A stretch of 64,000 nt of DNA, from NCBI GenBank assembly GCA_947497485.1, contig CANMHB010000008.1:1-64000 (forward strand), written 5' to 3'. Within the stretch, counting starts at the first letter, position 1; each line of letters begins with the position of its first letter. The stretch comes from Flavobacteriales bacterium (GTDB lineage Bacteria; Bacteroidota; Bacteroidia; Flavobacteriales_D; Crocinitomicaceae). Below are positions 18,529-35,024 of the stretch, one piece after another. The notes under the pieces were generated by a model that saw only the letters and a list, made by a program, of their open reading frames with translations, did no database searches and was not told the origin of the DNA. Made by a program: the position numbers and the translations under genes.

Positions 18529-21093
18529 TTAATGTCCTTTGCAACAATCTTTTTTCTTCGTGCATTCGGATCCTTTCCCTCCAATCCATTTACCATCTTT
18601 TCCATAATGTGCCATGCAGATTGCTTTTTCTTCTGCTGAACATCCTTTTTCATCACACATTTTAGCACATTCTTCTTTTGTCATTGTAGCACACTTAGAC
18701 ATATCACATTTCATTTCTTCCTTACACATTCCTTCTCCGTGACATTTCATTCCTTCTTTGCAATTTTCCATTCCGCATTTTCCAGCGCATTTAGACATAT
18801 CACAATTTTCTTTTTTGTCACAAGTTGAAGGGTCGCAAGAAGAAGGATTGCAGTTCGATTTCATTTCACACTTTTGCTTTCCGTGACATGAAGCATTTCC
18901 ATTTTCATCACCATGGCCGCTTCCCAAAATTGGTGCGATAACTAATCCAACTAAACAAGTTAATTTAATTAAAATATTCATGGAAGGACCAGAAGTATCT
19001 TTGAAAGGATCTCCAACCGTGTCTCCAGTAACCGCAGCTTTGTGAGCATCTGAACCTTTATAAGTCAATTCGCCATTAATCATAACGCCTGCTTCGAAAG
19101 ATTTCTTAGCGTTGTCCCAAGCTCCTCCGGCGTTGTTTTGGAAAATCGCCCAAAGAACCCCTGAAACAGCAACTCCAGCCATATATCCACCAAGAACTTC
19201 AGCTCCAAGCTTCATATCACCAGAAATAAACCCAGTTCCTAATCCAATTAAAATTGGAGTAATGATCGTTAATGCTCCTGGAAGCATCATTTCACGCAAA
19301 GCAGCTTTTGTAGAAATTTCAACACATTTACCATACTCAGGAGTCCCTGTACCATCCATAATACCTGGTATTTCGCGGAACTGACGACGAACTTCCATAA
19401 CCATATCCATCGCAGCTTTACCTACAGATTTCATTGCTAATGCTGAAAATACAACTGGAATCATTCCTCCGATAAATAAAGCAGCCAAAACAGGCGCCTT
19501 GAAGATGTTAATTCCGTCAATTCCAGTGAATGTAACGTAAGCAGCAAATAAAGCAAGAGCAGTCAATGCAGCCGATGCAATTGCAAATCCTTTTCCAACT
19601 GCTGCAGTTGTGTTACCAACAGAATCTAAAACATCTGTTCTTTGACGAACCTCTTTCGGTAATTCACTCATTTCTGCAACTCCACCTGCATTATCTGCGA
19701 TAGGTCCAAAAGCATCAATAGCTAATTGCATTGCAGTTGTTGCCATCATTGCCGAAGCTGCGATCGCAACACCATAAAATCCTGCAAGTGCATATGAACC
19801 CCAAATTGCCGCTGCAAACAAGATTACCGAAGAGAATGTCGAAATCATTCCTGTCGCTAAACCAGCAATAATATTGGTAGCAGCACCAGTTGATGAATTT
19901 TGAACGATATCCAAAACTGGTTTTTTACCTAATGCAGTGTAGTATTCCGTAAAGAAAGAGATTAAATAACCTACACCAAGACCAACTAACGTAGCGTAGA
20001 AAATATTCATACTTGGAATATCTCTTGGAGCTTCACCAAAGAAATTCATTCCTTGTATTTTTGCAGGTAATAACCAATTTACAAGGAAAAATCCAGCAGC
20101 GGCAGAAAGAATAATTGAAGCAATGTTCCCGATATTTAAAGCTCTTTGAACATCGTTTTCTTTGGCGTCATTGCTTGAAATTCGAACAAGGAAAGTTCCA
20201 ATTATAGACGCAATAATACCAACACCAGCAATCATGATTGGTAATAAGATTGGGCCCATTCCATTGAATTTCTCAACTACCTGACCTGCATCTGCCATAT
20301 CTTTGATAATGTAATTACCCAAGACCATAGATGCTAAAACAGTTGCAACATAGGAACCAAATAAATCAGCACCCATACCGGCAACGTCTCCAACGTTATC
20401 TCCAACATTATCAGCAATTGTAGCAGGGTTTCTTGGATCGTCTTCCGGAATTCCAGCTTCAACTTTACCAACTAAGTCAGCACCGACGTCAGCAGCTTTT
20501 GTGTAAATACCTCCACCAACACGTGCGAATAAAGCTATCGATTCAGCTCCTAAAGAGAAACCAGCCAATGCCTCTAATACCATAGTCATTTCTTCGTAGA
20601 AACTTTTATCTCCTTTAATAAACATGGTTGTAAAGAACATAAAGAAAAGTGAAAGACCAAGAACTGCCAATCCAGCAACACCTAGGCCCATAACCGTTCC
20701 ACCTCCAAAAGAAACTTTTAATGCATTTGGCAACGAAGTTTTTGCAGCTTCAGTTGTGCGCACATTCGCATCTGTTGCAATTCGCATTCCGATATTTCCG
20801 GCTACAGCAGAAAAAACTGCACCTACTATAAATGCAGGAACAATCATCCAACTTGTTGTTTCAACAATTCTTGAAATTCCGAATAAAGCAGCAGCAGCAA
20901 TTACAACAAAAATAGCTAGTAAGCGATATTCCGCACTTAAAAAAGCCATTGCTCCTTCTTTAATGTTTTTTGCAATTCCTTGCATTTTATCATCTCCTGC
21001 ACTTTGTTTCTTTACCCATGCCATTTTAACAAGCATAAATAATAAGCCTACAATAGATAAGGCGATTGGTACAATAATCAATTTAGATTCCAT
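18529..21093 (-). CDS. hppA: Membrane ion-translocating pyrophosphatase with a cysteine-rich C-terminal tail
   Basis: 854 aa. Residues 1-~730 are a complete multi-TM M-PPase that couples PPi hydrolysis to H+ or Na+ export. Motifs seen: '[20 protein letters not shown]' and '[20 protein letters not shown]' in the first substrate loops, and '[12 protein letters not shown]' later. '[11 protein letters not shown]' has Ala at the position where K+-independent enzymes carry Lys, so a K+-dependent type is inferred. The last ~122 residues (733-854) are unusual, with 20 cysteines in a hydrophilic Lys/Glu/Met-rich chain with 'CDMSKCA' twice and ending 'KKKDCCKGH'. M-PPase termini face the periplasm, so this tail should be extracytoplasmic. 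It is in frame, with no stop or frameshift at the join, and a terminator follows. Confidence 0.93.
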
Positions 21094-24727: not shown

Positions 24728-25858
24728 TTATTCATCTTCGTTTGATTTCTGCTTCTTAAAAAAATCAACATTCATCGTCAAGCCAACTTTAAATGGAAAA
24801 ATTTCGACAGTCTTGTTATTTTTAAAGAGCGAAGAAAGCTGATACGAAGCATAAACGCCCAATAAGCCATAACCTGCTCGCATAGTTGCATCTAATGTAA
24901 TCGGATTCAAATTATATTTTGAGCGAACAACATTTTGAAATCGGTCACCATTCTCATATTTTCCTGTTTTAGTCGTACTTGATGTAAACCGAAGTCCACC
25001 AACTACTCCTGCAGCAACATAGAAACTTTTCTTTTGCTTTGGTTTTGAGGCAAATTCAAGTAAAAGAGGAACAGTCAAATATCCGGCGCTCAGACTATTC
25101 ATTCTGTATGACTGAATTGTATCTTTTAGTGCAAAAACGGAATCTTGGTTGTGCTGAAGAATGTAATTATCCTTGAATCCAATTGTTGAAACAGCCATTC
25201 CCAAACCGGTTGTAAGACCAAAATATTGCTTGAAAATCGGTAATTTATATTCGAAAAGATTAAGGTTTAAAGAACTTGATTTCCCAACATTATTTTCCCA
25301 ATAGGGATTATTTTCAAAACTCGAATTAAAACCCTTACTCATTAGTATCAGTGTTCCAATATCAAATCCAGCCCAATGCGCATCGTAACGTTTTGTAATT
25401 TCCACGCCATCATCAATAATGTCTGGTTCATCTGAAAAGGAAGGAATTTTTGACATATCATCATCCAAAACAAAAGTGATTGGGAGCTGCACCCAATAAG
25501 CTTTTTGCTCGGAGCCTTTTACAGGATTCCAATTCGGCATCATTTTTACTACTCTAATTGCCTCTTCATCACACATTGGGCAATTCGTTGCGCCTTTGGC
25601 AACTGATATACTGTCAATTTTTCCATTTGAATTATCGATCCTAAACTTAATATAAACTTTTCCCTGGAGATTCTTTTCGATAGCATCTTGCGGATAACGC
25701 ATATTGGAGGCAATGAATTTTTGCATTTCAACTTGACCACCAGGATATTCTGGTGTTTCCTCTGAAACAAAAATATCCTCTGAAATTTCCTCAACTTGGG
25801 AGTAAACAGAAAAGGTCGAAAATAGTAAAGCAAAAAGGAACCCAAAAATTGATTTCAT
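24728..25858 (-). CDS. TonB C-terminal domain fused to an outer-membrane beta-barrel
   Basis: About 376 aa from the preferred start. A cleavable signal peptide ('FGFLFALLFSTFSVYSQ') replaces the membrane anchor of a normal TonB. Residues ~30-135 form a TonB_C domain ('EYPGGQVEMQKFIASNMRYP', 'GKVYIKFRIDNSNG', 'DEEAIRVVKMMPNWNPVKG', 'QLPITFVLDD') with an extra 'NCPMC' Cys pair. Residues ~165-370 look like a PorT/OmpA-type 8-stranded barrel ('AGFDIGTLILMSKGF', 'YFGLTTGLGMAVSTIG', 'MRAGYGLLGVYASYQL'). It starts 48 bp beyond the stop of the TPP-regulated TonB receptor, so it may be read from the same promoter; TATCTTCG (25873-25880) could be its own weak -7 box. It cannot be an inner-membrane energiser as built. 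Confidence 0.72.
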   Translation of the reverse strand: MKSIFGFLFALLFSTFSVYSQVEEISEDIFVSEETPEYPGGQVEMQKFIASNMRYPQDAIEKNLQGKVYIKFRIDNSNGKIDSISVAKGATNCPMCDEEAIRVVKMMPNWNPVKGSEQKAYWVQLPITFVLDDDMSKIPSFSDEPDIIDDGVEITKRYDAHWAGFDIGTLILMSKGFNSSFENNPYWENNVGKSSSLNLNLFEYKLPIFKQYFGLTTGLGMAVSTIGFKDNYILQHNQDSVFALKDTIQSYRMNSLSAGYLTVPLLLEFASKPKQKKSFYVAAGVVGGLRFTSSTTKTGKYENGDRFQNVVRSKYNLNPITLDATMRAGYGLLGVYASYQLSSLFKNNKTVEIFPFKVGLTMNVDFFKKQKSNEDE

Positions 25859-25906
25859 AATAAAAGTTTTATCGAAGATAATCAAATTTCATTGAGAAGG
25901 TGTTTA

Positions 25907-28369
25907 TTACAATTTAATCAAAATCCTTCCCATAAAGTTTCTACCGGCCTGCGGATAATAGAAGTTTTCCGTTGTGGTTTGTCCTCCGTAAATGTAAGAG
26001 AATGTGTAACCATTATTTGAATACATCGCGTTAAACAAATTATTGACTTGTAATCCGAATGTAATTTCCTTGAAAAACAAATCAGTAATCGTATAGGAAA
26101 TAATGAGATTGGAAAAGGTAAACGGATCAATACTTCGTTTGACATTTGAAGTGTTATCTAAAAACTGTCTGCCAACATATTTGGACATCCAGTCGATCGT
26201 TAAACCTTTAACTGGAACGTATGTGAAGCCACCATTTGCGACGATATTCGGTGAAAATGCCAAATCTGTGTTTTCGTGAACGATTACTTGTTGCTGATAA
26301 TAAGGCTCATTGTCTAAGTATTCATCCACAAACTCTTCAAAATACTTGATTTTATTTTGACTTAATGAAACAGAGGCGTTCAAACGAAGTCCTGGGATAA
26401 TTTTATAATTTCCATTTAATTCAATTCCGGCACGGTAGCTGTCCGCGACATTGGTTCGCGTATAACCACCAACATCATTGATTTTTCCAGTAAGTGCTAA
26501 CTGATTCGTGTAATCCATCCAATAAAGATTCGTTGATAAAGCCAATTTTTCTCTTGTGAAATTATATCCAACTTCCAAATCGCGCATTGTTTCGTGTTTC
26601 GGACGACTCGCAGGGGTACTTTCACGGAAATCCCTTCTTACTGGTTCTCTGTTTGCAATACCATAACTTGCAAAGATTGAATGATTGGAATTTACGATAT
26701 AACTTGCCGAAACTTTTGGATTGAAAAAATCAAAAGAAACCTGCTGTTGAACATCTTTAATTTCTCCACTAACATCATCAAACCCAATAAAACGATAATC
26801 AATGTGGCGATACTGTAAATCCCCAGCAATTAAAAATTTACTTGTTCGGTATGCGCCTTTGAGGTAATTACTAAATTCCGTTTTTTGTCCGTTTTCGTCA
26901 TAATATCGGTCACCTAATTCAGAATCAGATGCATTTCGAGCCCAAATCACTTCGCCAAAATGTCGTCCAAGGTAAGTATTTGCCGATCCCCCAAATGTAA
27001 GTTCGACTCTTGATTTATTGTAAGATAACGAATAAACAGTTCCGATAAAATCATTATCCAACCATCTTCTGCGGATTAAATCAGTTGAAAAAATCGTATC
27101 GCCTCCGGCAACAACGGGGCTTATTCCATAATTAGAAAGATTCTGACCTACTTTGTATTCTTCATAATATCCACGACCATAAGTGTAATGTCCAGCAACA
27201 TTCAAAATCAAATGAGATTTAATGGAGTGGGTAAAATGCAATTGAAAATTATCTTGTTGGTAGTTATCCTCTTGATTCTTGTATGTGTAGTAATTATAGG
27301 TTCTGCCCGAATTCAATAAATTCGCTCGTTCTTCATCTGTCAAATAATTGCGATCAGCATAAGCATTCATTTCAGTAACGTCATCCTTAATTCTCGATTC
27401 CGGTGTTCCATACCAAGATTGATATGTAATTTCCCTTCCACTGAATAAAATTGCTTTTAGAACTGATTTTTCACCCACGTATGAACCGGCAAGATAATAG
27501 GAACGAAGATTCGAGGTGGCTCGATCGATATAGCCATCCGAGACAATTCTTGATAATCGAGTCTCCAATGAGAATTTATCATTGATTAAACCCGTTCCCG
27601 CTTTAATGGTCGTTTTCCACGTATTGAAAGAACCGAATGCATTATCGATGGAACCAAATGCTTTTTTCGAAATATCTTGCGATTTGATATTCAAACTGGC
27701 TCCGAAAGCAGCAGCTCCATTTGTCGACGAACCAACACCGCGTTGAATTTGCATATTTTCAATGGAAGAAGCTAAATCAGGCATATTCACCCAATATACA
27801 TCATGCGATTCAGGATCATTTACCGGAATTCCGTTGATAGTAACATTTATTCGAGATGCGTCAACACCTCTTATTCGAATTCCTGTATATCCGACTCCTG
27901 TTCCAGCATCAGAAGTTGTCACGACAGACGGTGCTGATTCCAATAAAATTGGAATATCCTGACCAAAATTCTTTCGTTCAATAGGATTGGTGCTTTTAAC
28001 TATTGTTGTGGAAGTAGCCAATAGATCGGCTCGCGTTGCACCTACTTGAACTTCTTCCAACGACTTGGCATTGTTTTCTAATAAAATTGAGAGTTTTTGA
28101 TTGAAATCTGTTGGTTTTATGTTTATCCTTGCATCCTGAAACCCACGAAATTGTGCAATTAGAACACAGTTTGTTGGTTTCAAATTACTGAACGTAAAAC
28201 TTCCATTTTGATCGGTTCGCGTAAACAAATCGGTGTTTTCAATTTGAATTTTAACGCCTGATAATGGTTGGTTGATTTGGTCTTTTACTTCACCGAACAA
28301 CTTGTTTTGAGCACGACTGTTCAAGAACAAAAATAAAGTAGCAGTTAAAAAAATAATTCTTGTTTTCAT
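25907..28369 (-). CDS. TonB-dependent receptor under TPP riboswitch control (predicted thiamine uptake)
   Basis: 820 aa. Signal peptide (1-20, 'FLFLNSRAQ'), CarbopepD_reg_2 domain ('LFGEVKDQINQPLSGVKIQI'), plug domain ('GYTGIRIRGVDASRINVTIN', 'VNDPESHDVYWVNMPDL') and a long barrel ending 'YYPQAGRNFMGRILIKL'. It is a TonB-energised importer in the outer membrane. The thiamine-pyrophosphate riboswitch in its leader indicates that the ligand is thiamine or a precursor; a TPP-regulated outer-membrane receptor of this kind (called Omr1 in comparative-genomic work on Bacteroidota) is known. No PnuT or thi gene is adjacent in this window. The TonB/barrel fusion gene follows directly. Confidence 0.88.
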   Translation of the reverse strand: MKTRIIFLTATLFLFLNSRAQNKLFGEVKDQINQPLSGVKIQIENTDLFTRTDQNGSFTFSNLKPTNCVLIAQFRGFQDARINIKPTDFNQKLSILLENNAKSLEEVQVGATRADLLATSTTIVKSTNPIERKNFGQDIPILLESAPSVVTTSDAGTGVGYTGIRIRGVDASRINVTINGIPVNDPESHDVYWVNMPDLASSIENMQIQRGVGSSTNGAAAFGASLNIKSQDISKKAFGSIDNAFGSFNTWKTTIKAGTGLINDKFSLETRLSRIVSDGYIDRATSNLRSYYLAGSYVGEKSVLKAILFSGREITYQSWYGTPESRIKDDVTEMNAYADRNYLTDEERANLLNSGRTYNYYTYKNQEDNYQQDNFQLHFTHSIKSHLILNVAGHYTYGRGYYEEYKVGQNLSNYGISPVVAGGDTIFSTDLIRRRWLDNDFIGTVYSLSYNKSRVELTFGGSANTYLGRHFGEVIWARNASDSELGDRYYDENGQKTEFSNYLKGAYRTSKFLIAGDLQYRHIDYRFIGFDDVSGEIKDVQQQVSFDFFNPKVSASYIVNSNHSIFASYGIANREPVRRDFRESTPASRPKHETMRDLEVGYNFTREKLALSTNLYWMDYTNQLALTGKINDVGGYTRTNVADSYRAGIELNGNYKIIPGLRLNASVSLSQNKIKYFEEFVDEYLDNEPYYQQQVIVHENTDLAFSPNIVANGGFTYVPVKGLTIDWMSKYVGRQFLDNTSNVKRSIDPFTFSNLIISYTITDLFFKEITFGLQVNNLFNAMYSNNGYTFSYIYGGQTTTENFYYPQAGRNFMGRILIKL

Positions 28370-28385
28370 TTCTTAAAAAATTAAA

Positions 28386-28408
28386 CAAGAACAAGGGGCT
28401 AATTCTTG
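28386..28408 (-). terminator. Possible terminator hairpin of the riboswitch expression platform
   Basis: On the minus strand CAAGAA-ttagccccttg-TTCTTG is followed by TTTAATTTTTT. It lies between the TPP aptamer and the start codon at 28369. A 6-bp stem with an 11-nt loop is weak, but the U-rich tract and placement suit ligand-dependent termination. Confidence 0.45.
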
Positions 28409-28440
28409 GTGGTTATACAAATTTAAATTAGCTCAAGTCA

Positions 28441-28508
28441 TCTTCCCTGCGCAAGCATTACCTTACAGGTTCAATGGGTATAATCTCAGCCCTTTCGGAC
28501 ACCCCTTA
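28441..28508 (-). promoter_or_regulatory. TPP riboswitch (THI element)
   Basis: Read on the minus strand, the leader contains GGGGTGTCC, then CTGAGATTATACCC, then TTGAACCTG and GGTAATGCTTGCGCAGGGA, in the order and spacing of the conserved TPP aptamer (P1 GGGG..., the CUGAGA loop, ACCC, GAACCUG and the GCGNAGGGA end). Binding of thiamine pyrophosphate should reduce expression of the downstream TonB receptor. Confidence 0.95.
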
Positions 28509-28517
28509 GAGACATTG

Positions 28518-28525
28518 CAAAAATA
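28518..28525 (-). promoter_or_regulatory. -7 promoter box for the riboswitch transcript
   Basis: Minus-strand TATTTTTG matches TANNTTTG and lies about 10 bp ahead of the first aptamer base, so the RNA would start just before the riboswitch. No TTG is found at the usual -33 spacing. The IS3 element ends 75 bp further upstream. Confidence 0.55.
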
Positions 28526-28642: not shown

Positions 28643-29041
28643 ATGGAAAAAAATGTGCGATTATTACGAAGTCCGAGGAAATTTACAACTGACTTCAAAA
28701 GGAAAATTGTCAAAGATTTTGAACAGGGAACAATGAGTGTTGGTCAACTATCCAAGCTTTATGGGATTGCAAATACCCAGATCTACAGTTGGATTTACAA
28801 ATTTTCTATCTTTAACGAGAAAGGAAGTAGAATTGTAGAAATGAAAGATAGTCAATCAGCCAAATTTAAAGAATTAGAACAGCGCATTAAAGATCTTGAG
28901 CGCAATGTAGGGCAGAAACAAATAATGATTGAATATCTTGAGAAAATGATTGATTTAGCCAAGGAAGAACTGAACATTGATATCAAAAAAAACTTCGCTA
29001 CCCCACAATCAAATGGTTCAAAGAAAACAGTCAAAAAATAA
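28643..29041 (+). CDS. IS3-family transposase OrfA
   Basis: 132 aa. An N-terminal HTH that binds the terminal repeats ('KFTTDFKRKIVKDFEQGTMS', 'LSKLYGIANTQIYSWIYKF') is followed by a leucine-zipper-like coiled coil ('LEQRIKDLERNVGQKQIMIE'). In IS3 elements OrfA regulates transposition and forms the N-terminus of the OrfAB transposase made by frameshifting. Its stop is preceded by an A6 run that is the likely slip site. Confidence 0.92.
   Translation: MEKNVRLLRSPRKFTTDFKRKIVKDFEQGTMSVGQLSKLYGIANTQIYSWIYKFSIFNEKGSRIVEMKDSQSAKFKELEQRIKDLERNVGQKQIMIEYLEKMIDLAKEELNIDIKKNFATPQSNGSKKTVKK
29033..29038 (+). promoter_or_regulatory. Candidate -1 ribosomal frameshift site between orfA and orfB
   Basis: AAAAAA immediately before the orfA stop codon. 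A -1 slip moves from the orfA frame into the orfB frame, which is open across the 9-bp gap (reading K-I-T-F-S-M), so a fused OrfAB transposase can be made. No clear downstream pseudoknot was worked out. Confidence 0.6.
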
Positions 29042-29049
29042 CTTTTTCT

Positions 29050-29883
29050 ATGAATCAATTATATGATGCTATTGGAATCTCCAAACAGGCGGTTCACAAG
29101 CAATTAAAACAAAAATCTTATTTCAATACAAATGTAATTCAACTGATTACTAAGGCTGATGAACTAAGAAAAAAGCATCCAGGTTGTGGGGTAGAAAAGA
29201 TGTATTATACATTAAGCCCGAATTTTCTGGGCAGGGATAAGTTTGTGTCTACTTTTATGTCTTTGGGTTATCGATTAAAGCAAAAGAAAAACTACCATAG
29301 AACAACGATTGCCTCTAAAATATATAGACCAAATCTCATAAAGGGTTTAGTTATCGACGCTCCTTGCAAAGTTTGGCAATCAGACATAACCTATATTCAA
29401 GTGGGAGAAACTCATTGTTATGCTGTTTTCATTATTGATGTTTACACAAAAGAAATTGTTGGATTTTCTGTATCAGACCATATGAGAGCAACAGCAAACA
29501 TAATGGCTTTGAAGATGGCTTTAAAAAAGTGGAGAAATCCTCAAATACATCATTCTGATAGAGGAAGTCAGTACTTAAGTAAAGGCTATGTTCAACTTTT
29601 AGAAGTCAATGGCAGCAAAATAAGCATGGGGAAATCGGCTCAAGAAAATGCTTTTGCAGAAAGAATAAATAGAACAATAAAAGAGGAATATATTGGAAAT
29701 AAATGGATCAGATCTATAAAGCAGTTAAAAGCTGTAGTTTCAAAAGCTGTATTGCATTACAATCAATTTAGACCGCATAGGAATTTGAATATGATGACTC
29801 CATTTGATTTTATCCAAAATTGGAACAAATTGAAAATTCAAGAAAGACCGAAAATCACTATTTTTGATGACCGTAATTTATAA
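29050..29883 (+). CDS. IS3-family transposase OrfB (DDE integrase core)
   Basis: 277 aa. An HTH_21-type segment ('KHPGCGVEKMYYTL') precedes the rve catalytic core with the DDE triad: Asp in 'KVWQSDITYIQV', Asp in 'IHHSDRGSQYLS' and Glu in 'ENAFAERINRTIKEEYI'. The C-terminal 'LHYNQFRPHRNLNMMTPFDF' is standard. It cuts and joins the IS ends, most likely as the OrfAB fusion. The ORF is intact. Confidence 0.93.
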   Translation: MNQLYDAIGISKQAVHKQLKQKSYFNTNVIQLITKADELRKKHPGCGVEKMYYTLSPNFLGRDKFVSTFMSLGYRLKQKKNYHRTTIASKIYRPNLIKGLVIDAPCKVWQSDITYIQVGETHCYAVFIIDVYTKEIVGFSVSDHMRATANIMALKMALKKWRNPQIHHSDRGSQYLSKGYVQLLEVNGSKISMGKSAQENAFAERINRTIKEEYIGNKWIRSIKQLKAVVSKAVLHYNQFRPHRNLNMMTPFDFIQNWNKLKIQERPKITIFDDRNL

Positions 29884-30025: not shown

Positions 30026-33000
30026 CTACTTAACGATGTGCTTTACAACTTCACTGTTTTTTTCGCCATTTGAGATGCTAATAAAATAAATTCCTGGTGA
30101 AAGAGTTTCATCAATAACGAATAAATTGATTCCGTCTTTAATTTCAATGGTTCGAGAAATGACAGCAAAGCCTCTTGAATCGAATATCTTGAGTTCGCTT
30201 TCGCCACTAAAAGAAAGGTTATTTGCAAGTAAGTTGAAGTTACTTCCACTCGGATTAGGATAAGTGGTAACATAAGCCTTGTTTGACTCCGCACAAGAAA
30301 CTAGAATTGGTCCATACAATTTGGATTTACCATCGTTATCAACTTGATTCAAGCGATAGTAATTGTTGCCACTATGGGCATTTTCATCAATTGCATTATA
30401 AGTTAAATGCTCATTGCTATTGCCCGCAGCAGTTAAAGTCTGAATGGTTTGCCAATTTTCACCATCACGGGATTTTTGAAGGTCAAAGTAGGCGCAATTA
30501 TGCTCAGAAGCTGTTTGCCATTCGATTGAATTTTTTGATTCTTCACAACTTCCAGAAAAAGACAACAATTCAACTGGCAATGGTTCATTTGTGCCAGCTG
30601 CACCTCCAAATTCAGAGAAAGTCGTTAAACCATCCCATTGGAGTATTCCATTTGCAAATGGATTATGAATTCCCTGAATAATCGTGTTCGTAAACGCTGT
30701 TGTTATCGCATCTGGCTGATACCACTGACCTGAGCTTACTTTTACAGGAACGATATCTGAAGCTGAATATTTGCCCACCCTCACATCAGTTGGGAGATAA
30801 TCCAATAGTATGTTATAATTGAATCCTAAGATATTGAATGGCTCCACAATCCAGTTTCGATCGATGTATGTATCAATTACCGTATTCATTGCTGAAGTTC
30901 TCGCATTGGAAACGCGTGCAGAAACGTATGCACCTTCACCAAAAACACCTGAATTGAAAGACAAAGTTACAGGCGAATACTCATTGCCGTTTGCCGTTGT
31001 TCCGACTGGAAATAAGAAACTTGAAGATGAAGTAAACTTTTTTCTCAACTCACCAGCACCTGATGCAACAATCATTTTTGACGCTGACATAGTTCCACCA
31101 ACATTGTTTATTGCTGCACCAAGCGTAAGGTTTTTCGAGCCTAATCGAATGTGACCATTTGTAAGGGTTAAAGAATTAGAAACCTCAAGGTTCTTGGCAA
31201 GTGTTACACCAGCACTATTATTTAATGTTAAACCATAAAATAACAAAGATCCAGAACCATCAATTGTTTGAGCAGTATTTCCATTTAATGTAACTGTTCC
31301 CGTCCCAGTATTAAATGTTCCATTGTTTATGAAATTTCCTGAAATACCTAGCGTTGAAGAGCCAAGATTAAAAGAAGACCCATTTTCAATAATAAAATCT
31401 TTTGCGTTAAATGAACCTGACGTGATTGCAGGTAAATTACTTCCTGAAATACAATTACCTCCCAAAGAAGTAGGAACCACGAAAACTCTGTTAGAAGAAG
31501 TTGGCGCCTGCGTTGCAACAACATAATTCCCTGAACTTTTTTGGTACCAATTTGAGGTTGTTACTGCATTTGTGTTTGTGTTACCATTCCAAAGGTAATC
31601 TCCATTTTCTAGTAATATACCTGACACAGCAATTGTTGTATTTGGTTGACTAATGGAAATCGTAACCGGAGAAGAAACACTACAGCCATTGGATGTAGCT
31701 GTCATTATGTAGGTGGTTGAAGTTAATGGCGTAACAGAACCAGGAGCATTGGATGAAGATGAAAAACCTTCAGGTGAAGACGCCCAAGCGTATGTTACAG
31801 ATGCATTCGAAGCTTGCTTACCAGTGATTATAACATCGTCAACAAACCAATAATAGATGTTGCCATTTTGACCATTAATTCGGAAACGAATGCGAAAATT
31901 CTGACCATTAACGGCACTTAAATCGACATTTGAAACGGTTGTACCAGATACATCTGTATTTGTTGAAAACGTCCATCTTGGCGTCCAAACATTTCCATCA
32001 GTGGTTGTTTCTAATGAAAGTATACCGGCAGTTCCAGCTGCTCTGTCAACCATGTGTTTAAATGACATTTTTAAATCAATCCAACCTGTAGCATTGATGT
32101 AATTTTTGAGTGATGCATTTGCGTCAACAGTAATTGTAACATCTCCTCCAGAATACCCTAGTTCGGGAGCTGTTCCTCCTGCGGAATTATTCTCCGTAAA
32201 TACATACCAACGATCAACGTTGTTTGTTTGCCAATCGGCCATATCTCCGGAAAAATCTCTTGTGTATAGCGTTCCAGCGTTATATACTACTGCTCCTGTT
32301 GCGCTTCCGCTTAAGCTAGTCGAGTTCCCCAAACAAATGGATGTGTTTGAACCCGCTGTAACCGAAGTTGGCTTTGAATTGGCGGCTATATTTATTGTTG
32401 TATTCGAGTTACATCCACTCGCATTTGAATAAGAAATTGTATAATCCGCAGAAGTAAAAGTTGTCGAAGGCGTTCCAGATAGCACCCCTGTTGCTGAATT
32501 CAACAAAATTCCAGTTGGTAGCGCTGGTGTAACAGAAAATGAGTTAGGAGACCCATTTGTAACTGGGGTTTGATTCGAGATAGCTGTATTTTCGCAAAAA
32601 GTAAATGGTGAATTCGAATAGGCTGCTGAAAATGATGAGGTTGTAAAACTGATTTGAGTGCCATAAGTAGTGCCATTGCTATTAATAGCATAAGCTCTTA
32701 CGTAATAGGTCAATCCTGGTGTTAATCCTGTAATTGAACTTGAAAAGGAACCAGTCGTTCCACTCGCAGTAACTTTAGCGTTTGCGGTAGTTGGATTGGC
32801 TGTTGTCGCGTAGCAAACACCACGCTCAGTAACTGGACAGCCGCCATCTGCAGTAATATTTCCTCCTGTTGAGGCAGAACATCCTGTGATTGAGCTTGCT
32901 ACTGTCGTAGCTGAAACTGTAGGTGAGGAACAAGACGTTCCCTTTAGCGCTAACAATATTCCTCCCTGATATCCATTTCCCCCCGTAAAGGTAACCGAAC

Positions 33001-33763
33001 CAGCACCTGTTGCGCCGGCAGTTGCTTTTATTTTCCACGCAACACCAGTCGAACACCAATCGCCACCATCAGAAACATCCGATAATTCGGTTAAAGAACC
33101 TGGTGAGGTTGTCGTCCATGCAGAGTAAGAATTACCATATAATCCAGAAAAACCTAACATTACCACAGCCGCGTTTGCGTTTGCCGTTGTAATTGAAGTT
33201 GCTGAAATTGATTGTGAACCTGAAGTTGTAATAGTTCCTGTCGTAGCATCAAATGGACCAGATCCTACACCTGCCACTCCTGATCCGCCAGTTGTATTGA
33301 CACCTGAAAATGCAACAATTGTTCCGGCGGTATAATTAGGAAGCGTAATATTAAAAGAATAACTACTTGGCTCAGTTGATGTTGCTACTTTGTATAGGAT
33401 TGTTGCATAACTTTTAGTTCCGCCAAGTAGTCTACTATCAATTTTAGTCCAACCACTTAAATTTGCTGCAGTGGCACCTGAATTATTGCAGTACTGAGAG
33501 ATGCTTGCAATCATTATATCTCCAGCTACAACACCAGTTGGTTTATTTATAGTCAAAACCGTTGTGGAAGTATTCCCTGAAATCGATGCAGAGGTTGCAG
33601 TTCCCCGTTGTGCAATTTGGGAAAATACCTTTGAAAAAGATATAGTACAAATAATTACAGCAAAAAGGATTTTAAAAGAGCGCTGAGTAGATATTTTAAA
33701 AATGTACCTTTTACTCAATAGTTCATTTAAATTTTGAACTAATTGTCCAATCGAATAATTCAT
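30026..33763 (-). CDS. Large T9SS-exported surface protein (adhesin-like, multi-domain)
   Basis: About 1245 aa from the start at 33763. A delayed signal peptide ('SFKILFAVIICTISFSKVFS') precedes a beta-rich N-terminal domain with 'GVVAGDIMIASISQY' and then 'TGITTSGSQSISATSI'-like Thr/Ser repeats. Fn3-like ('LTPGLTYYVRAYAINSNGTT') and putative-Ig segments ('LPTGILLNSATGVLSGTPST') follow, then a jelly-roll region ('VDRAAGTAGILSLETTTDGN'), a beta-helix-like stretch ('NFINNGTFNTGTGTVTLNGN') and a type A sorting domain ('TTYPNPSGSNFNLLA', 'LSPGIYFISISNGEKNSEVV'). It should be secreted by the T9SS and displayed on the surface. The first 15 residues of the track ORF (start 33808) are not needed for export. 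Confidence 0.85.
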   Translation of the reverse strand: MNYSIGQLVQNLNELLSKRYIFKISTQRSFKILFAVIICTISFSKVFSQIAQRGTATSASISGNTSTTVLTINKPTGVVAGDIMIASISQYCNNSGATAANLSGWTKIDSRLLGGTKSYATILYKVATSTEPSSYSFNITLPNYTAGTIVAFSGVNTTGGSGVAGVGSGPFDATTGTITTSGSQSISATSITTANANAAVVMLGFSGLYGNSYSAWTTTSPGSLTELSDVSDGGDWCSTGVAWKIKATAGATGAGSVTFTGGNGYQGGILLALKGTSCSSPTVSATTVASSITGCSASTGGNITADGGCPVTERGVCYATTANPTTANAKVTASGTTGSFSSSITGLTPGLTYYVRAYAINSNGTTYGTQISFTTSSFSAAYSNSPFTFCENTAISNQTPVTNGSPNSFSVTPALPTGILLNSATGVLSGTPSTTFTSADYTISYSNASGCNSNTTINIAANSKPTSVTAGSNTSICLGNSTSLSGSATGAVVYNAGTLYTRDFSGDMADWQTNNVDRWYVFTENNSAGGTAPELGYSGGDVTITVDANASLKNYINATGWIDLKMSFKHMVDRAAGTAGILSLETTTDGNVWTPRWTFSTNTDVSGTTVSNVDLSAVNGQNFRIRFRINGQNGNIYYWFVDDVIITGKQASNASVTYAWASSPEGFSSSSNAPGSVTPLTSTTYIMTATSNGCSVSSPVTISISQPNTTIAVSGILLENGDYLWNGNTNTNAVTTSNWYQKSSGNYVVATQAPTSSNRVFVVPTSLGGNCISGSNLPAITSGSFNAKDFIIENGSSFNLGSSTLGISGNFINNGTFNTGTGTVTLNGNTAQTIDGSGSLLFYGLTLNNSAGVTLAKNLEVSNSLTLTNGHIRLGSKNLTLGAAINNVGGTMSASKMIVASGAGELRKKFTSSSSFLFPVGTTANGNEYSPVTLSFNSGVFGEGAYVSARVSNARTSAMNTVIDTYIDRNWIVEPFNILGFNYNILLDYLPTDVRVGKYSASDIVPVKVSSGQWYQPDAITTAFTNTIIQGIHNPFANGILQWDGLTTFSEFGGAAGTNEPLPVELLSFSGSCEESKNSIEWQTASEHNCAYFDLQKSRDGENWQTIQTLTAAGNSNEHLTYNAIDENAHSGNNYYRLNQVDNDGKSKLYGPILVSCAESNKAYVTTYPNPSGSNFNLLANNLSFSGESELKIFDSRGFAVISRTIEIKDGINLFVIDETLSPGIYFISISNGEKNSEVVKHIVK

Positions 33764-33834
33764 AGTATAGCATTTTAACCAACTATCATAAACATGCTGC
33801 AAAAACACTTTTAAATGATTCTACATCCGTTTAC

Positions 33835-34043: not shown

Positions 34044-35024
34044 TTAAGCTAAATTTTTCAATAGATGGGCAATCTGAACAGCATTCGTTGCGGCTCCTTT
34101 TCGCAGATTATCGGCGACAATCCAAAGGTTTAGGGTTTTCGGTTGACTTTCGTCTCTTCGAATTCGGCCGACGAAAACATCATCTTTTCCTTGAGCGTAT
34201 TTCGGCATGGGATACGTGAATGTCTCAAGACTGTCTTGAAGGGTGATTCCTGATGTTTCGTGAAGAATTTTCCGAACCTCTGATAAATCAAAATCTGATT
34301 CAAATTCAATATTTACAGCTTCAGAATGACCTCCAACTACTGGAACACGAACTGCTGTTGCTGTGACATTAATACTTTGATCAAGGATTTTCTTGGTTTC
34401 GTTGGTCAATTTCATTTCTTCCTTGGTGTAACCATTTTCAGTAAAAACATCACACTGCGGAATGCAATTTTTATCGATTGGATATTTATAGGCCATTTCA
34501 CCTGAAATCCCATTCCGTTCGTTTTCCATTTGCTGAACAGCCTTCACTCCTGTTCCTGTGATGGATTGATAAGTAGAAACTACGACCCTTTTCACACCAT
34601 ATTTCTTATGCAATGGAGCCAAAACCATTACTAATTGTATCGTACTGCAGTTTGGATTGGCAATAATTTTATCTTCTTTTGTCAATAAATTTCCATTGAT
34701 TTCGGGAACAATCAATTTCTTTGACGGATCCATTCGCCAGGCCGATGAGTTGTCAATTACGGTTGTTCCTACCTCAGCAAATTTCGGGGCCCACTGCAAG
34801 GAAGTATCTCCTCCGGCAGAAAAAATTGCAATGTCTGGGCGCATTTCAACAGCCGTTTGTAACCCTACTACCTTGAAATTCAAACCTCCGAATTCAATTT
34901 CCTTTCCAACTGATTTCTCAGATGCCACTGGAATTAACTCCGTAATTGGAAAACTTTGTTCCTTCAAAACTTGCAACATCACATTACCTACCATTCCTGT
35001 TGCGCCAACGACTGCTATTTTCAT
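34044..35024 (-). CDS. asd: Aspartate-semialdehyde dehydrogenase
   Basis: 326 aa, the usual length. An N-terminal NADP-binding motif 'VVGATGMVGNVMLQVL', the catalytic Cys in 'IANPNCSTIQLV' and the active-site block 'VPVVGGHSEAVNIEFE' with the catalytic His are present. It reduces aspartyl phosphate to aspartate semialdehyde, the branch point to lysine/diaminopimelate, threonine and methionine, so it also feeds peptidoglycan. It is monocistronic, diverging from the lamin-tail protein gene. Confidence 0.96.
   Translation of the reverse strand: MKIAVVGATGMVGNVMLQVLKEQSFPITELIPVASEKSVGKEIEFGGLNFKVVGLQTAVEMRPDIAIFSAGGDTSLQWAPKFAEVGTTVIDNSSAWRMDPSKKLIVPEINGNLLTKEDKIIANPNCSTIQLVMVLAPLHKKYGVKRVVVSTYQSITGTGVKAVQQMENERNGISGEMAYKYPIDKNCIPQCDVFTENGYTKEEMKLTNETKKILDQSINVTATAVRVPVVGGHSEAVNIEFESDFDLSEVRKILHETSGITLQDSLETFTYPMPKYAQGKDDVFVGRIRRDESQPKTLNLWIVADNLRKGAATNAVQIAHLLKNLA

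Follow-up and report, generated by a model that had tools for sequence, protein, structure and literature searches.

A TPP riboswitch-linked TonB-dependent receptor and its outer-membrane barrel neighbor with an optional TonB_C domain in a Flavobacteriales genus

Across 37 loci of a single Flavobacteriales genus, a TPP riboswitch is followed on the same strand by a TonB-dependent receptor gene and then by a gene encoding a small outer-membrane barrel, and the pairing of receptor and barrel in this thiamine locus is conserved and real. The linkage survey covered 60 genomes of the genus, and the 37 loci include that of the window, by which we mean the whole 64,000-nt stretch analyzed (GCA_947497485.1, contig CANMHB010000008.1, positions 1-64,000 of the forward strand; Flavobacteriales bacterium, Crocinitomicaceae), where the three elements lie on the minus strand within 24728-28525. 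The explanation that we favor, at a probability of roughly one half, is a thiamine-scavenging locus in which a TPP-regulated receptor is accompanied by a constant barrel partner that can carry a TonB_C domain as an optional hook and whose expression is partly tied to TPP. A sigma-A-type promoter would drive the riboswitch and an OMthi-type receptor, and a signal peptide would export the small barrel to act as the partner of the receptor. In most species, TonB_C would form the hook on a flexible periplasmic linker, with neither the anchor of an energy transducer nor ExbB/ExbD neighbors, and transcripts of the barrel gene would arise both at a promoter of its own within the short gap and by read-through from the receptor gene. 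Against this explanation stand four genomes in which the linkage is missing and the incompleteness of the rest of the thiamine route (no TPK and no certain PnuT). Thiamine scavenging is important for many aquatic bacteria that are unable to make thiamine.

The riboswitch and the presumed thiamine receptor

The aptamer (RF00059; 28427-28516, minus strand) was matched by Infernal over its full length, model positions 1-105, with 51.0 bits and an E-value of 2.9e-9. This score is below the Rfam gathering score of 54.3, the element is absent from the default Rfam search output, and its helix P1 is irregular. The riboswitch is real nonetheless, because the model is fully covered, because this is the only convincing TPP element in the whole genome, and because the aptamers of relatives, at the same site in the leader of the same gene, are full-length and mostly above the Rfam cut-off. 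Its 5' side adjoins a putative -7 promoter box, TATTTTTG (28518-28525, minus strand), as in the relatives, where TAnnTTTG occupies the same site before the riboswitch; across the 37 loci this box is perfect in 35 and has one mismatch in the other 2. TAnnTTTG is the -7 element of Flavobacteria, located at -12 to -5 from the transcription start (PMC9723704).

Between aptamer and start codon, RNA folding and comparison across the genus delineate a predicted expression platform (28370-28432, minus strand) consisting of a hairpin and a U-rich tract before the ATG. The hairpin loop, GCCCCUU, is able to base-pair with an AAGGGG segment in the aptamer, and in the ligand-free fold this segment pairs with the CCCCUU immediately 5' of the ATG. 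The CCCCUU loop is conserved in all loci of the genus that have this receptor, and the surrounding stem is kept though its letters vary. Pure transcription termination was rejected as the mechanism, since the hairpin is retained but the U tract is absent in two clades of the genus; control at translation or at termination may therefore be equally possible. Translational control is also allowed by findings in B. thetaiotaomicron, where the RNA level of riboswitch-linked transporter genes was not significantly changed (PMC5613172). Translational control would reach the barrel only by way of coupling.

The receptor gene (25907-28369, minus strand) encodes 820 residues with CarbopepD_reg_2, Plug and TonB_dep_Rec_b-barrel domains in Pfam and a TonB-box-like segment, LEEVQVGATRA; a PDB sequence search with it gave no match. 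The plug, the TonB-dependent barrel and the TPP riboswitch together place it with OMthi-type receptors, and thiamine is its presumed substrate on the strength of its domains, the riboswitch and TPP-linked homologues. Upstream of the riboswitch, an IS3-type element with two transposase ORFs (28643-29883) and a large gene (30026-33808) whose C-terminal end is T9SS-like separate it from a semialdehyde-dehydrogenase-like gene (34044-35024, minus strand), a homologue of which adjoins the locus in 18 relatives. Elsewhere in the window, 18529-21093 (minus strand) encodes a membrane-bound H+-pyrophosphatase-like protein whose C-terminal tail of about 120 residues is very rich in Cys, Lys and Met and metal-binding in look.

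Dependence on thiamine uptake is plausible, because ThiC was found in none of the genus genomes searched. In nearly all of these genomes a thiamine kinase of the TPK family was missing as well, and a certain PnuT was not found. The genome of the window has a single PnuC-family transporter gene, followed by one for an AAA_28 P-loop kinase. A PnuC-family transporter gene with an AAA_28/NadR-like kinase gene behind it lies at L125:4361-5435 and also in L113 and L109, and the kinase might act as a thiamine kinase not homologous to TPK. Directly upstream of the PnuC-family gene, L125:4022-4354 encodes a small secreted protein of repeated VDYESRAD-like units. In other families, a PnuC-family gene immediately precedes the TPP-receptor pair.

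A barrel protein with an optional TonB_C domain

The gene behind the receptor starts with an ATG at 25858 and stops at 24728 (24728-25858, minus strand), and its 376-residue product comprises a signal peptide, TonB_C, a disordered linker and a predicted 8-stranded outer-membrane barrel. Pfam assigns TonB_C (PF03544) to residues 52-131 with an E-value of 2.1e-12 (25466-25705, minus strand) and OMP_b-brl_2 (PF13568) to residues 176-340 with an E-value of 1.8e-7. AlphaFold, run on a 44-row alignment, returned a model with a mean pLDDT of 86 in which a signal-peptide helix is followed by a confident TonB C-terminal domain (TonB-CTD, about residues 38-131), a disordered linker (residues 135-154) and eight membrane strands, the combination of signal peptide and barrel that characterizes 8-stranded outer-membrane proteins. 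Both ends of such small barrels face the periplasm, and TonB_C would therefore be periplasmic. In Foldseek, the closest solved structures to the barrel were Ail, OmpA and OmpX, and TonB_C matched TonB-CTDs including the receptor-bound 9dc4 and 6i97. A sequence-only reading had placed riboswitch, TonB receptor and TonB_C-barrel gene where Infernal and Pfam now locate them; the domain order that it gave for the fusion is borne out by Pfam and AlphaFold, and a periplasmic TonB_C tethered to an outer-membrane barrel agrees with the predicted fold and the barrel topology.

A PDB sequence search with the fusion returned only H. pylori TonB. The literature, partially covered, yielded no description of a TonB_C-barrel fusion, and in a phylum survey of 297 genomes, in which the order is thinly sampled, nothing beyond the genus matched both domains in full. 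In the window's genome, a secreted 461-residue protein (L186, G000:C10:127849-128088) has an end nearly identical to the TonB_C of the true TonB, suggestive of recent copying of the domain.

The barrel is the constant part of the protein, and TonB_C is most likely an optional periplasmic hook. Mean pairwise identity is 61% for the receptor, 46% for the barrel and 39% for TonB_C, and the presence of TonB_C changes at least 4 times on the barrel tree (bootstrap range 3-5; 2 changes are forced by well-supported branches). One barrel, that of G049, is nested in a TonB_C-bearing clade and has lost the domain in frame with signal peptide and linker kept, a clear recent loss. TonB_C cannot be the essential function, because it is missing from 11 orthologues. 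The same absence weakens the earlier proposal that TonB_C either docks the receptor's TonB box or acts as a competitor of true TonB, in whose favor the fold is intact and close to the receptor-bound structures and the domain is 42% identical to the genome's own TonB; coupled with a single TPP-controlled operon, as originally conceived, docking or competition is unlikely. It is more doubtful still that the domain, carried by a barrel and off the inner membrane, acts on the side of a vitamin receptor, parking or regulating its TonB box, as a local, non-energized regulator of TonB-dependent uptake. A group of 15 genomes combines receptors that have lost the CarbopepD domain with strongly diverged TonB_C domains, a pattern that is only suggestive because it looks like one event. 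In a probable vitamin-receptor partner found throughout the genus, a TonB domain that sits on the wrong membrane and is gained and lost in evolution offers a clean natural experiment on the role of such domains.

Linkage of the pair and transcription of the barrel gene

A barrel or TonB_C homologue occurs in nearly all of the 60 genomes and the TPP element in most, and the receptor adjoins the barrel in further cases at contig ends. The linkage on which a single thiamine-uptake unit had been proposed is kept in the 37 loci despite turnover of the surroundings, with 7 neighbor families downstream of the pair and 16 upstream. Nine other families of the order have TPP-linked receptor homologues with no such barrel behind them. 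The pair is broken in four genomes (G003, G011, G013 and G029), where the barrel gene is found apart from the receptor gene and has no riboswitch; in G003, G013 and G029 it is the fusion gene that stands apart, by 40 kb in G003. As the genomes are related, the counts are not independent events, and the pairing may be gene-order inertia; inertia alone would not be expected to keep the pair while both flanks turn over. The barrel most likely serves the thiamine receptor as an outer-membrane accessory specific to this genus.

That persistence also bears on a different account, in which the protein is an OmpA-like tether, anchored in the outer membrane and, through TonB_C, in contact with peptidoglycan or a different partner in the periplasm, with no thiamine role and a merely historical adjacency to the receptor. 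The nearest solved barrels, a promoter box of its own, the unlinked copies and a barrel paralogue without TonB_C elsewhere in the window's genome are all compatible with a tether, but the retention of the pair amid changing flanks is not what it predicts, and we consider it possible at best. Linkage to the receptor would suit a barrel through which thiamine or its precursors enter separately and passively. Barrels of eight strands are too narrow to serve as general pores, however, and with eight strands in the model this role is highly improbable.

In the window, the gap between the receptor and barrel genes is 48 bp (25859-25906, minus strand), as the sequence-only reading had it, and no terminator was found in it; these features would suit a single operon. 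In 17 of 36 barrel genes, a perfect TAnnTTTG, its nn letters varying, ends 14-16 nt before the ATG; among controls, the box was seen in 0 of 58 genes with a same-strand neighbor within 60 nt and in 12 of 99 other genes. At the conserved distance, the window has TATCTTCG (25873-25880), with one mismatch to TAnnTTTG; GAAATTTG in the same gap was dropped as the promoter box, since TATCTTCG sits at the distance conserved in relatives. In G018 and G026, the gap holds a strong terminator, its hairpin reaching about -20 kcal/mol and accompanied by a T tract, and the box follows it. The fusion genes that stand apart in G013 and G029 are provided with the box TACATTTG and no riboswitch.

Because of the conserved gap box and the terminators in two relatives, transcription of the barrel gene probably starts, as judged from these motifs, at a promoter of its own and is not simply controlled by TPP. 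These observations and the four unlinked genomes count against TPP control of the fusion by co-transcription in the form first proposed. Read-through from the receptor gene likely adds to barrel expression in species with short gaps, and barrel expression is probably only partly tied to TPP. In the window, where the box has a mismatch and no good -33 box was found in the gap, read-through may dominate. As this case shows, riboswitch control of a gene does not follow from its lying a short distance behind a riboswitch-controlled one.

Comparison with known systems

As in the window, a TPP riboswitch directly precedes a TonB-dependent receptor gene in the OMthi locus (BT2390) of B. thetaiotaomicron, also of the Bacteroidota (PMC5613172). 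The operon partners of OMthi in gut Bacteroidetes are pnuT and tnr3 (PMC5613172), whereas in this locus the receptor is paired with a barrel gene, and TPK was not found. The genome's own TonB energy transducer (G000:C2:74594), which adjoins an ExbD-like gene on contig C2, shares the TonB C-terminal domain with the fusion at 42% identity. Unlike the transducer, the fusion has a signal peptide in place of an inner-membrane anchor, no proline-rich span and no adjoining ExbB or ExbD gene: its signal peptide is followed by about 20 residues, the domain, the linker and the barrel. The predicted barrel has eight membrane strands like OmpA, OmpX and Ail, and OmpA likewise carries a periplasmic domain on a linker; in the fusion, by contrast, that domain is N-terminal and of the TonB_C type, not OmpA-like. 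Additional outer-membrane barrels serve as accessory subunits of outer-membrane machines in Bacteroidota, as in the BAM complex of Flavobacterium johnsoniae with BamG (PMC12611786), although BamG, unlike the fusion, is a 14-stranded FadL-type barrel without TonB_C (PMC12611786).
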